Assembly (NCBI RefSeq): GCF_003003775.1 | Contig: NZ_PVWJ01000051.1 | Coordinates: 1 to 34,175 of the forward strand | Source: Merismopedia glauca CCAP 1448/3 | GTDB taxonomy: Bacteria > Cyanobacteriota > Cyanobacteriia > Cyanobacteriales > CCAP-1448 | Length of the DNA: 34,175 nt | Direction: 5' to 3' | Shown: piece after piece, positions 20-7,260 of the stretch | Layout of the letters: each line of letters opens with the position of its first letter | How positions within the stretch are numbered: position 1 is the first letter of the stretch | Notes under the pieces: generated by a model | Databases searched by the model: none | What the model was told of the DNA's origin: nothing | Seen by the model: only the letters and a program-made list of their open reading frames with translations | Position numbers and translations under genes: made by a program

Positions 20-361
20 ACCTAGAATTGCGGCAAAAGGTGTTTGTTTTTGAGCAACTTGACTCAGACGAGTAATATTTTGATTGGGGTATTTGCGTTT
101 TCTACCAGTAAATCTTTCGTTACCTTCTAGAAGTATTTTCAAAGCTTCATCTGGAGTTGCATCTTGTTTTTCAGAAGTGTTAACTGGCGTTTCTACTTGA
201 GGTATCGGTGTTGGTTTAGGTGGAGTAATTTCGGTTTGGGCATCAGATTTTTGAGAACTTAAGCTGACGGTTACTAAACCAGTTCCCACGGCACCCGCAC
301 CCAATTTAATTAAGTTTCGACGAGAGAAGTTGAAGTTTTTTTGAGAATGTGCTGTTTTCAT
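20..361 (-). CDS. ecaB: Tat-exported beta-carbonic anhydrase, N-terminal part (EcaB-like)
   Basis: This is the first 114 codons of a minus-strand gene whose 3' part is lost at the contig edge. The protein starts MKTAHSQKNFNFSRRNLIKL, a twin-arginine signal (SRRNLIK) followed by a Gly/Ala-rich hydrophobic core and no obvious lipobox Cys. A Pro/Thr-rich linker comes next, then the segment TPDEALKILLEGNERF and a stretch ending QTPFAAILG. That is the typical lead-in of beta-class carbonic anhydrases, in which the zinc motif CxDxR normally follows at once, so the catalytic residues are just off the window. The expected role is CO2/bicarbonate interconversion on the lumenal or periplasmic side. It starts 52 bp after ndhF3 on the same strand, so co-transcription is likely. 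EcaB of Synechocystis is known to be linked to NDH-1 CO2 uptake. The family call is strong; the EcaB orthology is inference. Confidence 0.82.
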
Positions 362-413
362 TTTTCTACCACTCATGAATTTTCGACGATTATTTTATTG
401 GTTTAATTCAATC

Positions 414-2285
414 CTAGAAAGATAATTGAATCAATCCTGCTGTGAGTAAACCCAAAAACACAGTTAATCCCAAGATAATTGTCAGTAGATAAAACTGACC
501 TTGACCGGAAGTATTGTATTTCAATCCTTGACCGCTAAATACTGTCGCCAAACCGACTAAATTAACTAATCCATCCACCACATTTCGATCTAGCCAGTCA
601 GTAACCTTCGCAATTACAGCTACTACTAAAACAATTGTGTAGCGATAAAGCTGAGGCGTATAGAAATCGTAAGCGAATAGGTTTTGTAGCGGTTTAAAAG
701 GTAATTGAATCGGCTTTTTCCACAGAGGATTGAGATAGATAATACTACCAATTCCCACACCAGAAATAGTAGACCAAACTACTAATGGAGTTAGTTGCTG
801 ATGCAAGTTTTCCCACCGAGGTAAGAGGGATAAATTGTGTAAAATTATGGGTACGTGCAGAGTAATAGCTAACAAAACTACCATTGGAAATACCATTGTC
901 CAAGCTACTTCAGGCGATCGCTCGGTCATTTCCTGGGGTTTTCCGCCAAATACTAACCCAAATTCTCGCGTTAGGCTAAAAGCAGTCAAAGCATTAACCA
1001 CTAACACCAAACCTAACAGCCAGGGATGCTTATCCCATAATCCATCGACTAACTTGAGGATTGCCCAAAATCCGCCAAAAGGTGGGAAACCAATCAAACC
1101 AGCAGCACCAACTAGATACGATATTGCCGTAATGGGTCTTCTAGACCACAACCCCCCTAATTTAGTTAAATCTTGGGTAATAGTATTTAAAATTACCCCA
1201 CCAATGCTCATTACTAATAGTCCCATCGCTACAGCATGAGCTAACAGAAGTAAATAAGCTGCATCATCATTGAGAGTCCCCACAGCAATGAAAACTAGTC
1301 CCATATACGCGCTGACACTGTAAGATAGAGAGCGCTTGATATCAATTTGGGCGATCGCAATTAAACTCGCACCCACCGCCGTTACAGCCCCAATTCCCAC
1401 CGTTACAGCCAATGCTGTCGGAGAAAGGGCGATTATGGGTTGCAACTTAATCAGTACCCAAGCACCCGTAGCCACTACCACCCCATTCCGTAAAATCGTA
1501 CTGGGTAAAGGGCCTTCCATCGCTTCATCTAGCCACAAATGCAACGGGAATTGAGCGCATTTCCCCATTGGACCTGCAATTAACGCTAATCCTAGTAAAG
1601 TAAAGGTAGTAGGATGTGCTGCTGCATATTGGCGCACCGACTCGCTATTCGCCCACTGGGCTAATTCCGTGAAATCCCAAGTTCCAGCTAAAGGAAGTAA
1701 GGCAATTACCCCCATTAATAAGATCAAATCTCCCGCCCGTTTAGTTAAGAAAGCATCCCTAGCCCCCGTCACCACGAGAGATTGATTGAACCAATAACCT
1801 ACTAGTAGATAAGTCCCCAATGTCAGGACTTCTAAAACTATATAGCTGAAAAACAGAGAATTAGACAAGGCTAAAACCGACATCCCGCCTTCAAAATAAG
1901 CCAGGAAAGCAAAAAATCTGCCCCAACCCCAATCCATTTCTAGGTAACCCACCGCATACAGTTGCGCTAACAGGTTTAAACCCGTCACCACCACCAACGC
2001 TGCGACATTCACCCCAGAAATTTCTAAAGGTAAAGTCAACTGCAAGTTAGCCACTTCTAACCAAGTTATGGATAGCTTTTGGGGTACGCCATTCCAAATG
2101 CCTGTCAAGGCTAAAACACTATGCACAAAAGCCAATAGTGTCATCAATAGATTAACGTAACCCGCAGGTCTAGGGCCTGTGCGGCTAGTAATCGCAGGTA
2201 ACCACAAAATTGAGAATAATGCCCCTAAAAGAGTGTAGAGGGGTACTATCCAGACTGTTTGGACAAAAAATGAACTCATGCTCAT
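414..2285 (-). CDS. ndhF3: NAD(P)H-quinone oxidoreductase subunit F, CO2-uptake type (NdhF3/NdhF4)
   Basis: A 623-aa polytopic membrane protein of the NuoL/NdhF proton-pumping antiporter family. The central region GARDAFLTKRAGDLILLMGV and the following GPMGKCAQFPLHLWLDEAMEGPLPSTILRNG carry the conserved Lys/Glu-containing helices, and the C-terminal extension is that of NdhF, which makes it longer than DabB-type proteins. The N-terminus (WIVPLYTLLGALFS, RTGPRPAGYVNLL) resembles the NdhF3/NdhF4 branch found in CO2-hydrating NDH-1MS complexes of the thylakoid, which use ferredoxin-driven electron flow to turn CO2 into bicarbonate. Two in-frame ATGs lie at 2285 and 2279; the first is preceded by TAGGTAA. 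A LysR gene is divergent and a carbonic anhydrase follows. In the usual operon ndhD3, cupA and cupS follow ndhF3; here they would have to lie beyond the contig edge. F3 versus F4 rests mainly on the regulator next door. Confidence 0.85.
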   Translation of the reverse strand: MSMSSFFVQTVWIVPLYTLLGALFSILWLPAITSRTGPRPAGYVNLLMTLLAFVHSVLALTGIWNGVPQKLSITWLEVANLQLTLPLEISGVNVAALVVVTGLNLLAQLYAVGYLEMDWGWGRFFAFLAYFEGGMSVLALSNSLFFSYIVLEVLTLGTYLLVGYWFNQSLVVTGARDAFLTKRAGDLILLMGVIALLPLAGTWDFTELAQWANSESVRQYAAAHPTTFTLLGLALIAGPMGKCAQFPLHLWLDEAMEGPLPSTILRNGVVVATGAWVLIKLQPIIALSPTALAVTVGIGAVTAVGASLIAIAQIDIKRSLSYSVSAYMGLVFIAVGTLNDDAAYLLLLAHAVAMGLLVMSIGGVILNTITQDLTKLGGLWSRRPITAISYLVGAAGLIGFPPFGGFWAILKLVDGLWDKHPWLLGLVLVVNALTAFSLTREFGLVFGGKPQEMTERSPEVAWTMVFPMVVLLAITLHVPIILHNLSLLPRWENLHQQLTPLVVWSTISGVGIGSIIYLNPLWKKPIQLPFKPLQNLFAYDFYTPQLYRYTIVLVVAVIAKVTDWLDRNVVDGLVNLVGLATVFSGQGLKYNTSGQGQFYLLTIILGLTVFLGLLTAGLIQLSF

Positions 2286-2598: not shown

Positions 2599-3522
2599 AT
2601 GATTAAAAACGCCACTATGCATCAACTGCGGGTTTTTGAAGTTGTGGCTCGCCATTGCAGCTACACTAGGGCTGCGGAAGAATTATTTCTAACTCAACCG
2701 ACAGTCTCTATGCAAATGAAGCAACTTACCCAGGCTGTTGGTTTACCACTGTTTGAACAAATTGGTAAGCGCCTCTATCTCACTGATGCCGGACAAAAAC
2801 TCTACACTACCTGTAAAGATATTTTTGATCGCTTGTCTCAGTTTGAAATGGATATCGCCGATATGAAAGGGATGAAGCAGGGACAATTGAAGTTATCTAC
2901 AGTGACTACCACTAAATACTTTCTCCCTCGGATTTTAGGACCATTTTGCGATCGCTACCCAGGAATTGATGTCTCGTTAAAGTTTACTAATCACGAAGGG
3001 ATTCAACAATATCTCCATGAGAATTCCAGCGACTTATATATCCTTAGCCAAGTCCCAGAAAATCTAGATGTAGTCTCTTACAAAGTGATTGAAAACCCTT
3101 TGGTAGTTTTGGCTCCCTATAATCACCCGCTAACTAAGGAAAGGCAAATCCCTATAGCAAGAATCGCAGAAGAACCTTTTATTATGAGGGAATCTGGCTC
3201 AGGTACGCGCCAAGTAGTCCAAAAGCTCTTCGATCGCCACGACTTGAAGTTGAAAGTCCGGTTGGAACTCAGTAGTAACGAAGCAATTAAGCAAGCTATT
3301 GTGGGAGGCTTGGGTTTATCTATCTTGTCTCGCCATACCCTAGCTCTCGAAGGTATGACTAAACCCTTAGCTGTATTGGATGTTGCGGGTTTTCCCATCC
3401 AAAACTATTGGTATGTCATTTACCCTAGTGGTAAACAACTATCAGTTGTGGGGCGCACTTTCCTTAATTATTTACAGCAAGAGGGAGAGCAAATTACTGA
3501 AGCGTCTGCTTTCTTTAACTAG
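2599..3522 (+). CDS. ccmR: LysR-type regulator of inorganic-carbon genes (CcmR/NdhR/CmpR family)
   Basis: A 307-aa LysR-type transcription factor. Residues about 7-66 form the winged helix-turn-helix (MHQLRVFEVVARHCSYTRAA, then ELFLTQPTVSMQMKQLTQAV). Residues about 95-300 are the two-lobed periplasmic-binding-like effector domain with ESGSGTRQVV and SSNEAIKQAIVGGLG, which are strongly conserved in the cyanobacterial CcmR/NdhR and CmpR proteins. Those regulators sense 2-oxoglutarate/NADP+ or 2-phosphoglycolate/RuBP and control low-CO2 genes, including ndhF3-ndhD3-cupA and cmp. The start is fixed by TAGGAGA six bases upstream; a second ATG at codon 7 is also possible. Divergence from ndhF3 favours CcmR/NdhR over CmpR, but sequence alone does not fully separate the two. 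Confidence 0.82.
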   Translation: MIKNATMHQLRVFEVVARHCSYTRAAEELFLTQPTVSMQMKQLTQAVGLPLFEQIGKRLYLTDAGQKLYTTCKDIFDRLSQFEMDIADMKGMKQGQLKLSTVTTTKYFLPRILGPFCDRYPGIDVSLKFTNHEGIQQYLHENSSDLYILSQVPENLDVVSYKVIENPLVVLAPYNHPLTKERQIPIARIAEEPFIMRESGSGTRQVVQKLFDRHDLKLKVRLELSSNEAIKQAIVGGLGLSILSRHTLALEGMTKPLAVLDVAGFPIQNYWYVIYPSGKQLSVVGRTFLNYLQQEGEQITEASAFFN

Positions 3523-4293: not shown

Positions 4294-6105
4294 ATGGCAC
4301 TGATTGTTCAAAAATATGGCGGGACTTCTGTAGGCTCAGTAGAACGGATTCAAGCGGTAGCGCAACGGGTTTGTCAAACTGTGGCGCAGGGAAACTCGGT
4401 AGTAGTAGTAGTCTCAGCAATGGGGAAAACTACCGATGGTTTGGTAAAGCTAGCTCAAGAAATCTCGACTAATCCCAGTCGCCGAGAAATGGATATGCTC
4501 CTTTCGACGGGGGAACAAGTAACCATCGCCTTGCTGAGTATGGCTTTGCAAGAATTAGGACAAGCAGCCGTCTCTTTAACAGGGGCGCAAGTAGGAATTG
4601 TCACTGAAGCCGAACACACCCGCGCGCGCATTTTGGAAATCAAAACCGAACGGATGGAACGACATCTGCAAAACCAAGAAGTAATCGTCGTTGCGGGTTT
4701 CCAAGGAATTAGCACCAGTACGGACTTAGAAATTACAACTTTGGGAAGGGGAGGATCGGATACTTCCGCCGTTGCCCTAGCTGCTGCCTTAAAAGCTGAT
4801 GTATGCGAGATTTATACTGATGTTCCCGGTATTTTAACTGCTGACCCCCGCTTAGTTCCCGATGCTCAATTAATGGCAGAAATTACCTGCGATGAAATGC
4901 TGGAATTAGCCAGTTTGGGAGCCAAAGTTTTGCATCCTCGCGCTGTGGAAATTGCCCGTAACTATGGGGTTCCTTTGGTGGTGCGTTCCAGTTGGACAGA
5001 CGAACCAGGGACAAAAGTTGTTTCGCCTCAGCCTCAATCTCGTTCCCTAATAGGCTTGGAAATTGCTAAACCCGTCGATGCGGTAGAATTTGACACAGAT
5101 CAAGCCAAAGTCGCCTTATTACGAGTTCCAGACCGCCCAGGAATTGCGGCTAGTTTGTTTGGAGAGATTAGCGATCGCGATATTGATGTCGATTTAATCA
5201 TTCAATCGATCCACGAAGGGAACACTAACGATATTGCATTTACTGTAGCTAGAAACATCCGCAAACGGGCTGAAGCAGTGGCTGAAGCGATCGCCCCTAC
5301 TTTATGTCGTTCTAGCCCCATAGAGACTAATTCCGAAGTCATCATCGATGAGGATATCGCCAAAGTCAGTATAGCTGGCGCGGGGATGATTGGTCGTCCT
5401 GGAGTTGCAGCTAAAATGTTTGCGACACTAGCTGCGGCTGGGGTGAATATTCAAATGATTTCCACCTCAGAAATCAAAGTTAGTTGCGCGATCCACATGG
5501 CTGATAGCGACTTAGCTTTGGGAGTTTTGTGCGATACTTTCGAGATTCAAGAATCTCCAGTCAAATTAGGTAACGCTAGCCCCCAGAAGAGCCATGAAGC
5601 CCCAGTTAGAGGCGTGGCACTAGATTTAAACCAAGCCCGTCTCGCCATTCGTCACGTGAGCGATCGCCCAGGAATGGCGGCGAAAATCTTTGGCTTACTC
5701 GCCCAGAATAATATCAGCGTCGATACCATTATCCAATCCCAACGCTGTCACATCATTGATGGAATCCCCACCCGCGATTTAGCTTTTACCGTGGCTCAAG
5801 GGGATGCGAAACAAGCCCAAACCCTTTTGTCTCAAGCCTCTGCGGATTTTGGTGGTGGAGATGTCTTACTTGACGAAGAAGTTGCCAAAGTCAGCATTGT
5901 TGGTGCAGGAATGGAAGGAAACCCAGGGGTAGCGGCAAAAATGTTTACTTCTCTAGCCCAAGCTGGAATCAACATCCAAATGATTACTACCTCAGAAATC
6001 AAAATTAGCTGCGTCGTCAGTCAAGAACAAGGGACGCTAGCCTTGCAAACCGTTCACCAAGCCTTTGAGTTATCTGGGAGTCAAAAATTTGAGGTTGCTG
6101 CTTGA
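4294..6105 (+). CDS. lysC: Aspartate kinase with four ACT domains
   Basis: A 603-aa enzyme that phosphorylates L-aspartate to aspartyl-4-phosphate, the first step to lysine, threonine and methionine. The amino-acid kinase domain spans about residues 1-245: it opens with [10 protein letters not shown], and [24 protein letters not shown] and [14 protein letters not shown] supply the phosphate and aspartate sites. Two ACT pairs follow, at about 265-425 and 440-600, seen from the repeated phrases [14 protein letters not shown] / [16 protein letters not shown] and [20 protein letters not shown] / [20 protein letters not shown] with [11 protein letters not shown] / [11 protein letters not shown]. 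Four ACT domains are usual for cyanobacterial aspartokinases, against two in most bacteria, and they carry the allosteric lysine/threonine sites. The start is ATG at 4294, about seven bases after a weak purine stretch. It is monocistronic, with a palindrome cluster downstream. Confidence 0.95.
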
Positions 6106-6180
6106 TTTCGCCATTTTTTAAGATATTTTTGGGGTAGGCATTATGCCATAGGTGTGATCTTAACGTGAAACCTTTACCCC

Positions 6181-6318
6181 GCCGTGAACTCAAGTTCACG
6201 GCTAATAGCCCAAGTCCACTGTTCGCGTAGCGTCACGCAGTGATAGTGGACTGAAAATAGTTCTTAGAGTCCTCTAAAGAGGACTTTAGCTATAAGCCAG
6301 GGGTTTTCAACCCCTGGC
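6181..6318. repeat. Cluster of four palindromes between lysC and FKBP gene
   Basis: Four hairpin-forming inverted repeats follow each other: GCCGTGAACT/AGTTCACGGC with a 2-base loop (6181-6202), AGTCCACT/AGTGGACT with a 24-base loop (6213-6252), AGTCCTCT/AGAGGACT with a 2-base loop (6268-6285), and GCCAGGGGTT/AACCCCTGGC with a 3-base loop (6296-6318). All arms are perfect. They sit between convergent genes, so they could terminate transcription from both sides. The string of unrelated palindromes also resembles the hairpin ends of IS200/IS605-derived non-autonomous elements. Confidence 0.75.
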
Positions 6319-6391
6319 GGTTGTTGTCTAAACCCAGCGTGCAAAAAGCGTTTTAGCCTTAAAAGCGGCGGCGGTTGAGTTAGTTTGTGAC

Positions 6392-6907
6392 CTATTTGAC
6401 ATCCAACAGTTCGACATCAAAAATTAGGGTGGCGTTAGGAGGAATGACACCGCCAGCACCGCGAGAACCGTAACCTAATTCTGGGGGAATAATCAAGCGA
6501 CGTTGACCGCCAACTTGCATGGTGCTGAGTCCTTCATCCCATCCTTTGATTACTTGTCCAGCACCGATTTTAAAGTCAAAAGGTTGATTGCGATCGCGGG
6601 AACTATCAAATTTTTTGCCGTTTTCTAGAGTCCCAGTATAGTGAACGACAACTCTTTGTCCTGTTTTTGGGGTTGCGCCTTCACCAACTTTTTGGTCGAT
6701 GTATTTCAGTCCCGAAGGGGTGGTTTGAACGTCGTTATTTTCAGGATTTGAGGTACTAGTCATAGAATTATCGGCGATTACAATAGCAGGTTGATTGACG
6801 TTGAGTTCGTCAGCTAGAGCAGATGCGGTTGTATTGTTGAACTGAGCAAATACTACTAGTAACCCACAGACCAGCATAACGCTTAAGCTGATTAAAATTT
6901 CTCTCAT
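6392..6907 (-). CDS. FKBP-type peptidyl-prolyl cis-trans isomerase, exported
   Basis: A 171-aa protein. The FKBP fold covers the last ~95 residues, from TPSGLKYIDQKVGEGATPKT through VHYTGTLENGKKFDSSRDRN, FDFKIGAGQVIKGWDEGL and PPELGYGSRGAGGVIPPNAT to FDVELLDVK. The active-site aromatic and Asp residues of the family (Y of VHYTG, F/D of KFDSS, V/I/W of GQVIKGW, Y of LGYGS) are all present. It catalyses proline isomerisation during folding. The N-terminus (MREILISLSVMLVCGLLVVF) is a signal peptide or anchor, then a low-complexity linker, placing the enzyme in the lumen or periplasm. An upstream in-frame ATG at 6946 exists, but the one at 6907 is chosen because GGGAGAAAG lies seven bases before it and because it gives a clean signal peptide. 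It follows the coiled-coil gene by 29 bp and is probably in its operon. Confidence 0.9.
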   Translation of the reverse strand: MREILISLSVMLVCGLLVVFAQFNNTTASALADELNVNQPAIVIADNSMTSTSNPENNDVQTTPSGLKYIDQKVGEGATPKTGQRVVVHYTGTLENGKKFDSSRDRNQPFDFKIGAGQVIKGWDEGLSTMQVGGQRRLIIPPELGYGSRGAGGVIPPNATLIFDVELLDVK

Positions 6908-6936
6908 CTGATGCTTTCTCCCAATTTTTTTCAGTC

Positions 6937-7260
6937 TTAACGCCATTGTTTGTTTTCTAGATCTCGCACTTGCCTTTCTAAGCGATCGATTCGTCCCCGC
7001 AATTCATCCATTTCCGATTGACGAGGAACACCCAAATCCTGAAGTAGATTCCGCATATATCTTTGCATTTGGGTTTCAAAGCCACCTTGATCTACTTTGA
7101 TTTGTTGTAGCATTTCATCAACAAAAGCTTTTGCCTGATCGGGGTTCAGCTTACCATCTTTCACCCATTGGTCGCTCACTTCTTTGAGTTTTTCGGTGAC
7201 TAGGGAGGTAGTACCTACCCCAATCATCAGCATCTGTTTCAGCCAGTTATTAGCATCCAT
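6937..7260 (-). CDS. Small helical coiled-coil protein, phasin-like
   Basis: A 107-aa cytosolic protein, all helical by composition. It starts MDANNWLKQMLMIGVGTTSL, has a charged middle (KLKEVSDQWVKDGKLNPDQA) and ends in a coiled coil (MDELRGRIDRLERQVRDLEN). The layout (N-terminal amphipathic helix, then KLNPDQAKAFVDEM-like segment, then leucine-heptad tail) matches small proteins annotated as phasin-like or PHA-granule-associated in cyanobacteria. A role at polyhydroxyalkanoate granules is only a family-level guess. An earlier in-frame start at 7290 would add ten residues, but the ATG at 7260 fits the conserved beginning better and has AAGG about 11 bases upstream. It lies between nblS and the FKBP gene on the same strand, 95 bp after nblS. 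Confidence 0.7.
   Translation of the reverse strand: MDANNWLKQMLMIGVGTTSLVTEKLKEVSDQWVKDGKLNPDQAKAFVDEMLQQIKVDQGGFETQMQRYMRNLLQDLGVPRQSEMDELRGRIDRLERQVRDLENKQWR

Follow-up and report, generated by a model that had tools for sequence, protein, structure and literature searches.

The window analysed here is the whole of one contig (C51; 34,175 nucleotides) of the Merismopedia glauca CCAP 1448/3 genome, which is assembled in 254 contigs (5.2 Mb). Bases 1–19 read agatgtgtataagagacag, which we take to be the Nextera mosaic end; we read them as untrimmed sequencing adapter and not as a chimeric join, with genuine sequence from base 20 onward, and the same remnant may occur on further contigs of the assembly. 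The contig end falls within a carbonic anhydrase (CA) gene, ecaB, the 119-aa N-terminal part of which occupies 20–376 on the minus strand in a reading frame that is open at the contig end. This fragment contains SRRNLIKLGAGAVG (complement of 20–376) and carries a twin-arginine export signal, SRRNLIKLGAGAVGTGLVTVSL (SRRNLIKL). Because the catalytic core lies outside the contig, the 119-aa fragment by itself gave no match at E 0.001 to a Pfam or NCBIfam model; in a quick tree the window CA groups with the NDH-linked EcaB proteins of genomes G015 and G100 (three-row set, 99*). The preceding gene on the same strand is ndhF3 (414–2285; 623 aa), and the spacer between them (377–413, minus strand) has no terminator-like site listed within it. 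Two ecaB starts are possible, an ATG at 376, which lies 37 bp past the ndhF3 stop, and an ATG at 361, which lies 52 bp past it; the original prediction had given the spacing as 52 bp, which is correct for the second ATG and not for the first.

The identity of NdhF3 is clear from the ndhF3_CO2 model TIGR01960 (953.3 bits; cut-off 588.7) and from the alignment of residues 6–611 with chain F of 6TJV, the NdhF3 of the solved NDH-1MS complex (706 bits). In this alignment R39, Y43, and E116 of the window protein correspond to Arg37, Tyr41, and Glu114 of a putative CO2 channel. A non-polar tunnel through NdhF3, linking the lumenal side with the zinc site of CupA, has been proposed with these three residues (PMC6981117). 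A 2026 review (PMC13249358) describes the tunnel idea as based on structure alone and calls for biochemical evidence.

Divergent from ndhF3, across an intergenic region at 2286–2598 in the list of open reading frames, is a gene for a 307-aa LysR regulator (2599–3522, plus strand), which agrees with the CcmR-type regulator foreseen alongside ndhF3. Its best solved relative is 5Y2V, which we take to be NdhR and whose record is named Rubisco operon transcriptional regulator. The score to 5Y2V (386.8 bits) exceeds that to CmpR 5Z49 (258.7 bits), a chain of only 239 residues, the ranking being one against CmpR; the protein is thus nearer NdhR than CmpR, and its gene adjoins ndhF3. Genome G015 has a 77% identical regulator gene divergent from ndhF3, and at several other loci less closely related ones adjoin ndhF3. 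Within 1–2700 there are 7 promoter-like sites versus 5.6 in shuffles and 2 terminator-like sites versus 2.6, and an NdhR-binding pattern gave, at no more than 3 mismatches, 45 matches in the whole window versus 51 expected by chance, so that neither scan yields a usable binding-site signal.

The other half of ecaB lies at a matching contig end. A whole-genome Pro_CA search led to three places, one of them contig C12, which ends inside the gene and encodes on its minus strand (L004 11614–12000) a 128-aa C-terminal part with GHERC that matches PF00484 at 96.3 bits (cut-off 25.7). When an intact orthologue from genome G015, of the same family (L115), was used as query against both contigs, its residues 4–94 aligned to C51:17–340 with 56% identity and its residues 112–235 to C12:61751–62122 with 74% identity. 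An 18-row alignment of the family reads PFAAILG, then CADSRVPxEIIFDQGLGD, then LFVCRVAGN, and on the strength of these matches and this alignment an estimated 18 codons or so (~54 nt), including the CxDxR zinc block, would fall in the assembly gap. On C12, ndhD3 starts 126 bp after the CA stop, cupA follows 65 bp later, and a convergent gene comes next, so that the gene order, with C51 and C12 joined by homology and not by a spanning read, is ndhF3-ecaB-ndhD3-cupA. The claim that an EcaB-like Tat CA adjoins ndhF3 is therefore upheld by the alignment of both halves to the intact orthologue; the suspicion of an assembly join near base 20 is dispelled by the adapter at bases 1–19 and by the half found on C12, and the neighbouring contig indeed has ndhD3 and cupA after the CA. 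The view that the usual order is altered was right in that a CA directly follows ndhF3, but ndhD3 and cupA have not been replaced; they come after the CA.

Compared with the known NDH-1MS operon ndhF3-ndhD3-cupA-cupS, the M. glauca operon keeps ndhF3 (in the window), ndhD3, and cupA (both on C12) in order and with key residues, and differs in having ecaB between ndhF3 and ndhD3 and no cupS adjoining cupA. The CupA on C12 has chain P of 6TJV as its best solved relative (709.5 bits), and its H128 and R133 correspond to zinc-site residues there (residue roles after PMC6981117 and PMC13249358). In a genome search, fasciclin-type (CupS-like) genes were found only on C25 and C3; cupS 3′ of cupA is a feature of the Synechocystis operon, and membership in the NDH-1MS operon does not need it. 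Contig C20 bears an ndhF4-ndhD4 set of its own, accompanied by a CupB-like gene (43% to CupA).

The linkage is not peculiar to this genome. In an order draw of 148 genomes, a CA match at 1e-8 was found in 112 and an SbtA match in 70, NdhF3 also being searched, and genes were mapped by tblastn in 107 CA neighbourhoods and at 13 ndhF3 loci without a nearby CA. The NDH-type CAs of this draw comprise 56 tree rows in 53 genomes, the window's copy counted. Forty of the 56 rows, from 39 genomes in 15 families, occupy the ndhF3/ndhD3 interval; the linked CA is thus present in 39 genomes, the window's included, out of 53 in which an NDH-type CA was usable and out of 148 overall, and an intact linked copy is absent from the other 109. 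Two rows (family f31) come after an ndhD4-cupB set and 14 lie elsewhere or at contig ends, and the 13 ndhF3 loci without a CA read ndhF3-ndhD3-cupA. Across 39 measured rows the median gap is 104 bp before the CA (range 13–846) and 109 bp after it (42–1012), the extremes deriving partly from a tandem pair in locus L129. Mostly short, these gaps are compatible with a single transcript, without proving one. At L129 itself (genome G074, 5495–6995), two NDH-type CAs stand in tandem between ndhF3 and ndhD3.

A phylum draw of 292 genomes, which overlaps the order draw, contains 30 genomes with hits of 320 bits or more, a cut placed at a break in the list (next score, 295.5). The CA is co-directional with ndhF3 and begins within 250 bp downstream of it in 24 of these genomes, one of which, G167, comes from another order and shows a complete and intact ndhF3-CA-ndhD3-cupA (L253); in 5 of the 30 the CA is unlinked. 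In genome G330 (L252) the CA lies directly upstream of ndhF3, not downstream. Relics of ecaB with large internal deletions remain between ndhF3 and ndhD3 in G026 and G091, within the order, and in G386 and G292, outside it (L079 2990–3450; L153 5500–6030; L254 5720–6180; L258 4800–5380). Since relics sit in the same slot in four genomes, they suggest that the ndhF3/ndhD3 slot is old and that the CA gene has been lost more than once.

A scan of named genomes with the 18-row alignment yielded at least 80 loci, which overlap the other draws and are no census. Among the 80 named loci listed, 21 have ndhF3-CA-ndhD3 (counting L182, where the D gene best matches NdhD4, yet cupA is next), 2 more have CA-ndhD3-cupA at contig ends, 15 have sbtA-sbtB-CA, and 1 has cupB-CA (L192, from Chamaesiphon, apparently the same contig as L080). 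The linked examples include Microcystis aeruginosa LEGE 91341, M. wesenbergii, Fischerella muscicola PCC 7414, Westiellopsis prolifica, Nostoc linckia FACHB-104, and Limnofasciculus baicalensis. At L080, L088 (family f31), and L192 the NDH-type CA directly follows cupB of an ndhF4-ndhD4-cupB set. EcaB therefore pairs also with the second NDH-1 CO2-uptake system.

M. glauca has a second Tat-CA, which directly follows sbtA-sbtB (C69, L005 6858–8866, minus strand). This unit of sbtA-sbtB with a Tat-CA of a sister clade occurs in 24 order-draw genomes, namely the window's and 23 others, and differs from the NDH unit in both CA clade and transporter; eleven genomes, again including the window's, have both units. 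A maximum-likelihood tree of 106 rows separates the Sbt-type clade (S, 50 rows) from the NDH-type clade (N, 56 rows) with branch support of 100/99. Half of the S rows (25) lie beside sbtA, meaning within 3 kb on the same strand, and 25 lie elsewhere; no N row is beside sbtA (0/56) and none of the S rows falls in the ndhF3/ndhD3 slot (0/50), the labels having been assigned partly by hand (the second CA of L092 as sbtA, and L141, which has an SbtA-like protein of 24% identity nearby, as unlinked). At L077 the CA is ~2.5 kb from sbtB, with room for another gene between. In a quick tree of 110 rows (109 CAs and an outgroup), the locus label needs 13 changes, versus a shuffled mean of 51.0 and no shuffle as low among 200, a contrast to be read with the knowledge that near-copies make some clustering of labels expected. 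Left out of the trees were CA pieces of <200 aa (L079, 52 aa; L153; L151; pieces in L058 and L102) and L154, which has no CxDxR motif; the 106-row tree also omits the outgroup and the long-branched L149, L150, and L152, the last three of which fall with the S clade in the 110-row tree. Because the outgroup root of that tree is unreliable, we claim no direction of gain or loss from it. In L060 (G088) and L079 (G026) an S-type CA lies near a cupA, outside the ndhF3/ndhD3 interval. Among the neighbours of CAs unlinked to uptake genes, several are recurrent and none was recognised as a carbon-uptake gene.

By our own rule, twin arginines followed by a hydrophobic stretch are present in 56/56 N rows and 44/50 S rows, and three of the six S-row misses (L063, L065, and L066) read GRRNFLNL, failing only the rule; the twin arginines are invariant in the 18-row alignment. 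A motif scan found CxDxR and HxxC in 54/56 N rows and 50/50 S rows, and L093, which reads AHERC, keeps its ligands by eye, giving 55/55 of the readable N rows. For the window copy, whose zinc ligands the original prediction had made decisive, GHERC is present on C12 and the CxDxR position lies in the unassembled gap. The AlphaFold model of L115 (mean pLDDT 77, with residues 1–42 below 50) finds its best fold match in the Mycobacterium tuberculosis β-CA 2A5V. A division into uncleaved NDH-type anchors and cleaved Sbt-type signals was considered and rejected, as AxA-like sites are common to both: strictly defined, in 37/56 N rows and 41/44 S rows with a recognised Tat segment, and, relaxed, in 52 and 42. 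PEPAVAQ, with which an N-type signal typically ends, appears cleavable. A comparison of the clades for specific residues that could form an NDH contact face gave only 5 columns above the cut, too few to argue from.

These features lead us to a reading that we favour tentatively, at somewhat less than even confidence: the window holds one end of a low-CO2 NDH-1MS (NDH-1_3) operon whose lumenal EcaB partners the complex. EcaB would be produced together with NDH-1MS from ndhF3-ecaB-ndhD3-cupA and exported in folded form by the Tat system to the lumenal side of the thylakoid membrane, where it would interconvert HCO3− and CO2 beside the mouth of the putative NdhF3 gas tunnel. HCO3− reaching the acidic lumen could be converted there to CO2, which would pass to the CupA/NdhF3 site and be hydrated to HCO3− on the cytoplasmic side. 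Judged from sequence, EcaB would be active on the lumenal or periplasmic side and would most likely feed CO2 to this channel; a lumenal CO2 supply fits because the NDH-type CA keeps its export signal in every row and adjoins the gene for the tunnel subunit. The Sbt-type enzyme, on this logic, would convert periplasmic CO2 to HCO3− for SbtA. A broader version, about which we are a little more hesitant still, is that NDH-type EcaB is a dedicated lumenal feeder and its Sbt sister serves SbtA by the reverse reaction, exported CAs being paired operon by operon. The dedicated NDH-1/CA unit of the original prediction fits the recurrent linkage in many genomes; co-transcription, a lumenal over a periplasmic site, the direction of the reaction, and physical contact with the complex we infer.

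Published work bears on this reading from several sides. EcaB of Synechocystis is mostly on thylakoids and reportedly interacts with CupA and CupB (PMC10096703, PMC11360081), and a 2023 review sets cytoplasmic and lumenal CO2 supply side by side and calls a role of thylakoid EcaB probable (PMC10096703). CupA and CupB are cytoplasmic (PMC13249358), which counts against lumenal contact, since the partners reported for EcaB face the cytoplasm and it is not obvious how a lumenal EcaB would touch them. A periplasmic location of the Synechocystis enzyme has been described too, and one report had it as inactive (PMC11360081 among the sources). In Microcystis PCC 7806 at high CO2, ndhF3 is reported as slightly down and ecaB as constant, which argues against tight co-expression there.

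The co-regulation of an external CA that is useful at low CO2 could also explain the linkage without any partnership with NDH-1MS. In this rather unlikely account EcaB would be periplasmic and would equilibrate CO2 and HCO3− or recapture leaked CO2. The Tat system in cyanobacteria serves the plasma membrane too, and 14 of the 56 NDH-type rows lie outside the operon, both in keeping with this account. A merely periplasmic role, however, fails to explain the locus preference of the two clades, in which N rows are never beside sbtA and S rows, exported just as well, never occupy the ndhF3/ndhD3 interval, and this argues against co-regulation only. The localisation reported for Synechocystis EcaB cuts both ways, periplasmic in part and mostly thylakoid (PMC10096703, PMC11360081).

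We consider it doubtful that EcaB is instead a cytoplasmic-side accessory or regulator of CupA/CupB whose twin-arginine stretch is an anchor or a relic. Such a role would accommodate the reported interaction with CupA/B together with CA activity (PMC10096703) and the cytoplasmic position of CupA and CupB themselves (PMC13249358), but twin arginines kept in every N row would be unexpected of a relic, and many rows have an AxA-like site behind the signal. It is highly improbable that the linkage arose in assembly or is confined to this genome. The contig does end in adapter sequence within the gene; its other half, however, adjoins ndhD3 at the matching contig end, and the intact order is seen in G015, in 37 further draw genomes, and in the 21 named loci described above.

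T. vestitus BP-1, or a relative, is presumably the source of the NDH-1MS structure. A published table shows BP-1 without ecaB, and EcaB is therefore not essential to the complex or to the tunnel mechanism; the 109 draw genomes lacking an intact linked copy and the 14 NDH-type rows placed elsewhere likewise weigh against the favoured reading. The closest known counterpart of the window protein is EcaB (Slr0051) of Synechocystis sp. PCC 6803, likewise an exported β-CA with a twin-arginine signal, which is reported to work with NDH-1_3/4 (PMC10096703, PMC11360081). By gene number, slr0051 is unlinked from sll1732-1733-1734 (ndhF3-ndhD3-cupA), unlike ecaB of the window; our use of the name EcaB rests on the Tat-CA clade, Synechocystis being outside the named loci listed. 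CAH3 of Chlamydomonas offers a comparison in function: it is a thylakoid-lumen CA that produces CO2 from HCO3−, but it is an unrelated, α-class protein, and its CO2 is destined for the pyrenoid. DAB2 (DabA2/DabB2) of Halothiobacillus, a second functional comparison, combines a β-CA-like protein with a complex-I-like membrane subunit in CO2 uptake; DabA2, however, is cytoplasmic and itself the vectorial hydratase, whereas EcaB is an exported classical β-CA and CupA does the hydration.

EcaB and NDH-1MS are already known; the operon composition appears to be new. The examined parts of the EcaB and NDH-1MS literature make no mention of an ndhF3-ecaB linkage or of a pairing of CAs with uptake operons, which is no proof of its absence from the literature, and the separation of the genes in Synechocystis, the usual model, and the lack of ecaB in BP-1 may explain why little attention has been paid to the link. 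Reviews treat as open whether CO2 arrives at the CupA/CupB site from the cytoplasmic or the lumenal side (PMC10096703, PMC13249358), and call the physiological role of EcaB undefined or only probable (PMC10096703, PMC11360081). The position of a gene for a Tat-exported CA between those for NdhF3 and NdhD3 provides independent genetic evidence of the importance to this complex of carbon chemistry across the membrane, and, if our reading is true, the lumen is the source from which NDH-1MS draws its CO2. The value of the linkage lies not in its strangeness but in making this question testable: it offers a direct way to test the CO2 source of a high-affinity uptake machine, and it names organisms in which to do so, such as Fischerella muscicola PCC 7414 and Microcystis aeruginosa LEGE 91341.

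The Tat-CA that follows sbtA-sbtB widens the picture, suggesting that exported CAs are paired with inorganic-carbon uptake systems more generally. The CA-SbtA pairing may be wider than the cyanobacteria. Tat-type CAs adjoin SbtA homologues in Gemmatimonadaceae (L229) and Planctomycetaceae (L246 and L247). Near the Sbt unit of M. glauca itself, at L005 10710–11828 on the plus strand, a dCTP-deaminase-like gene has, by eye, an apparent intein insert.
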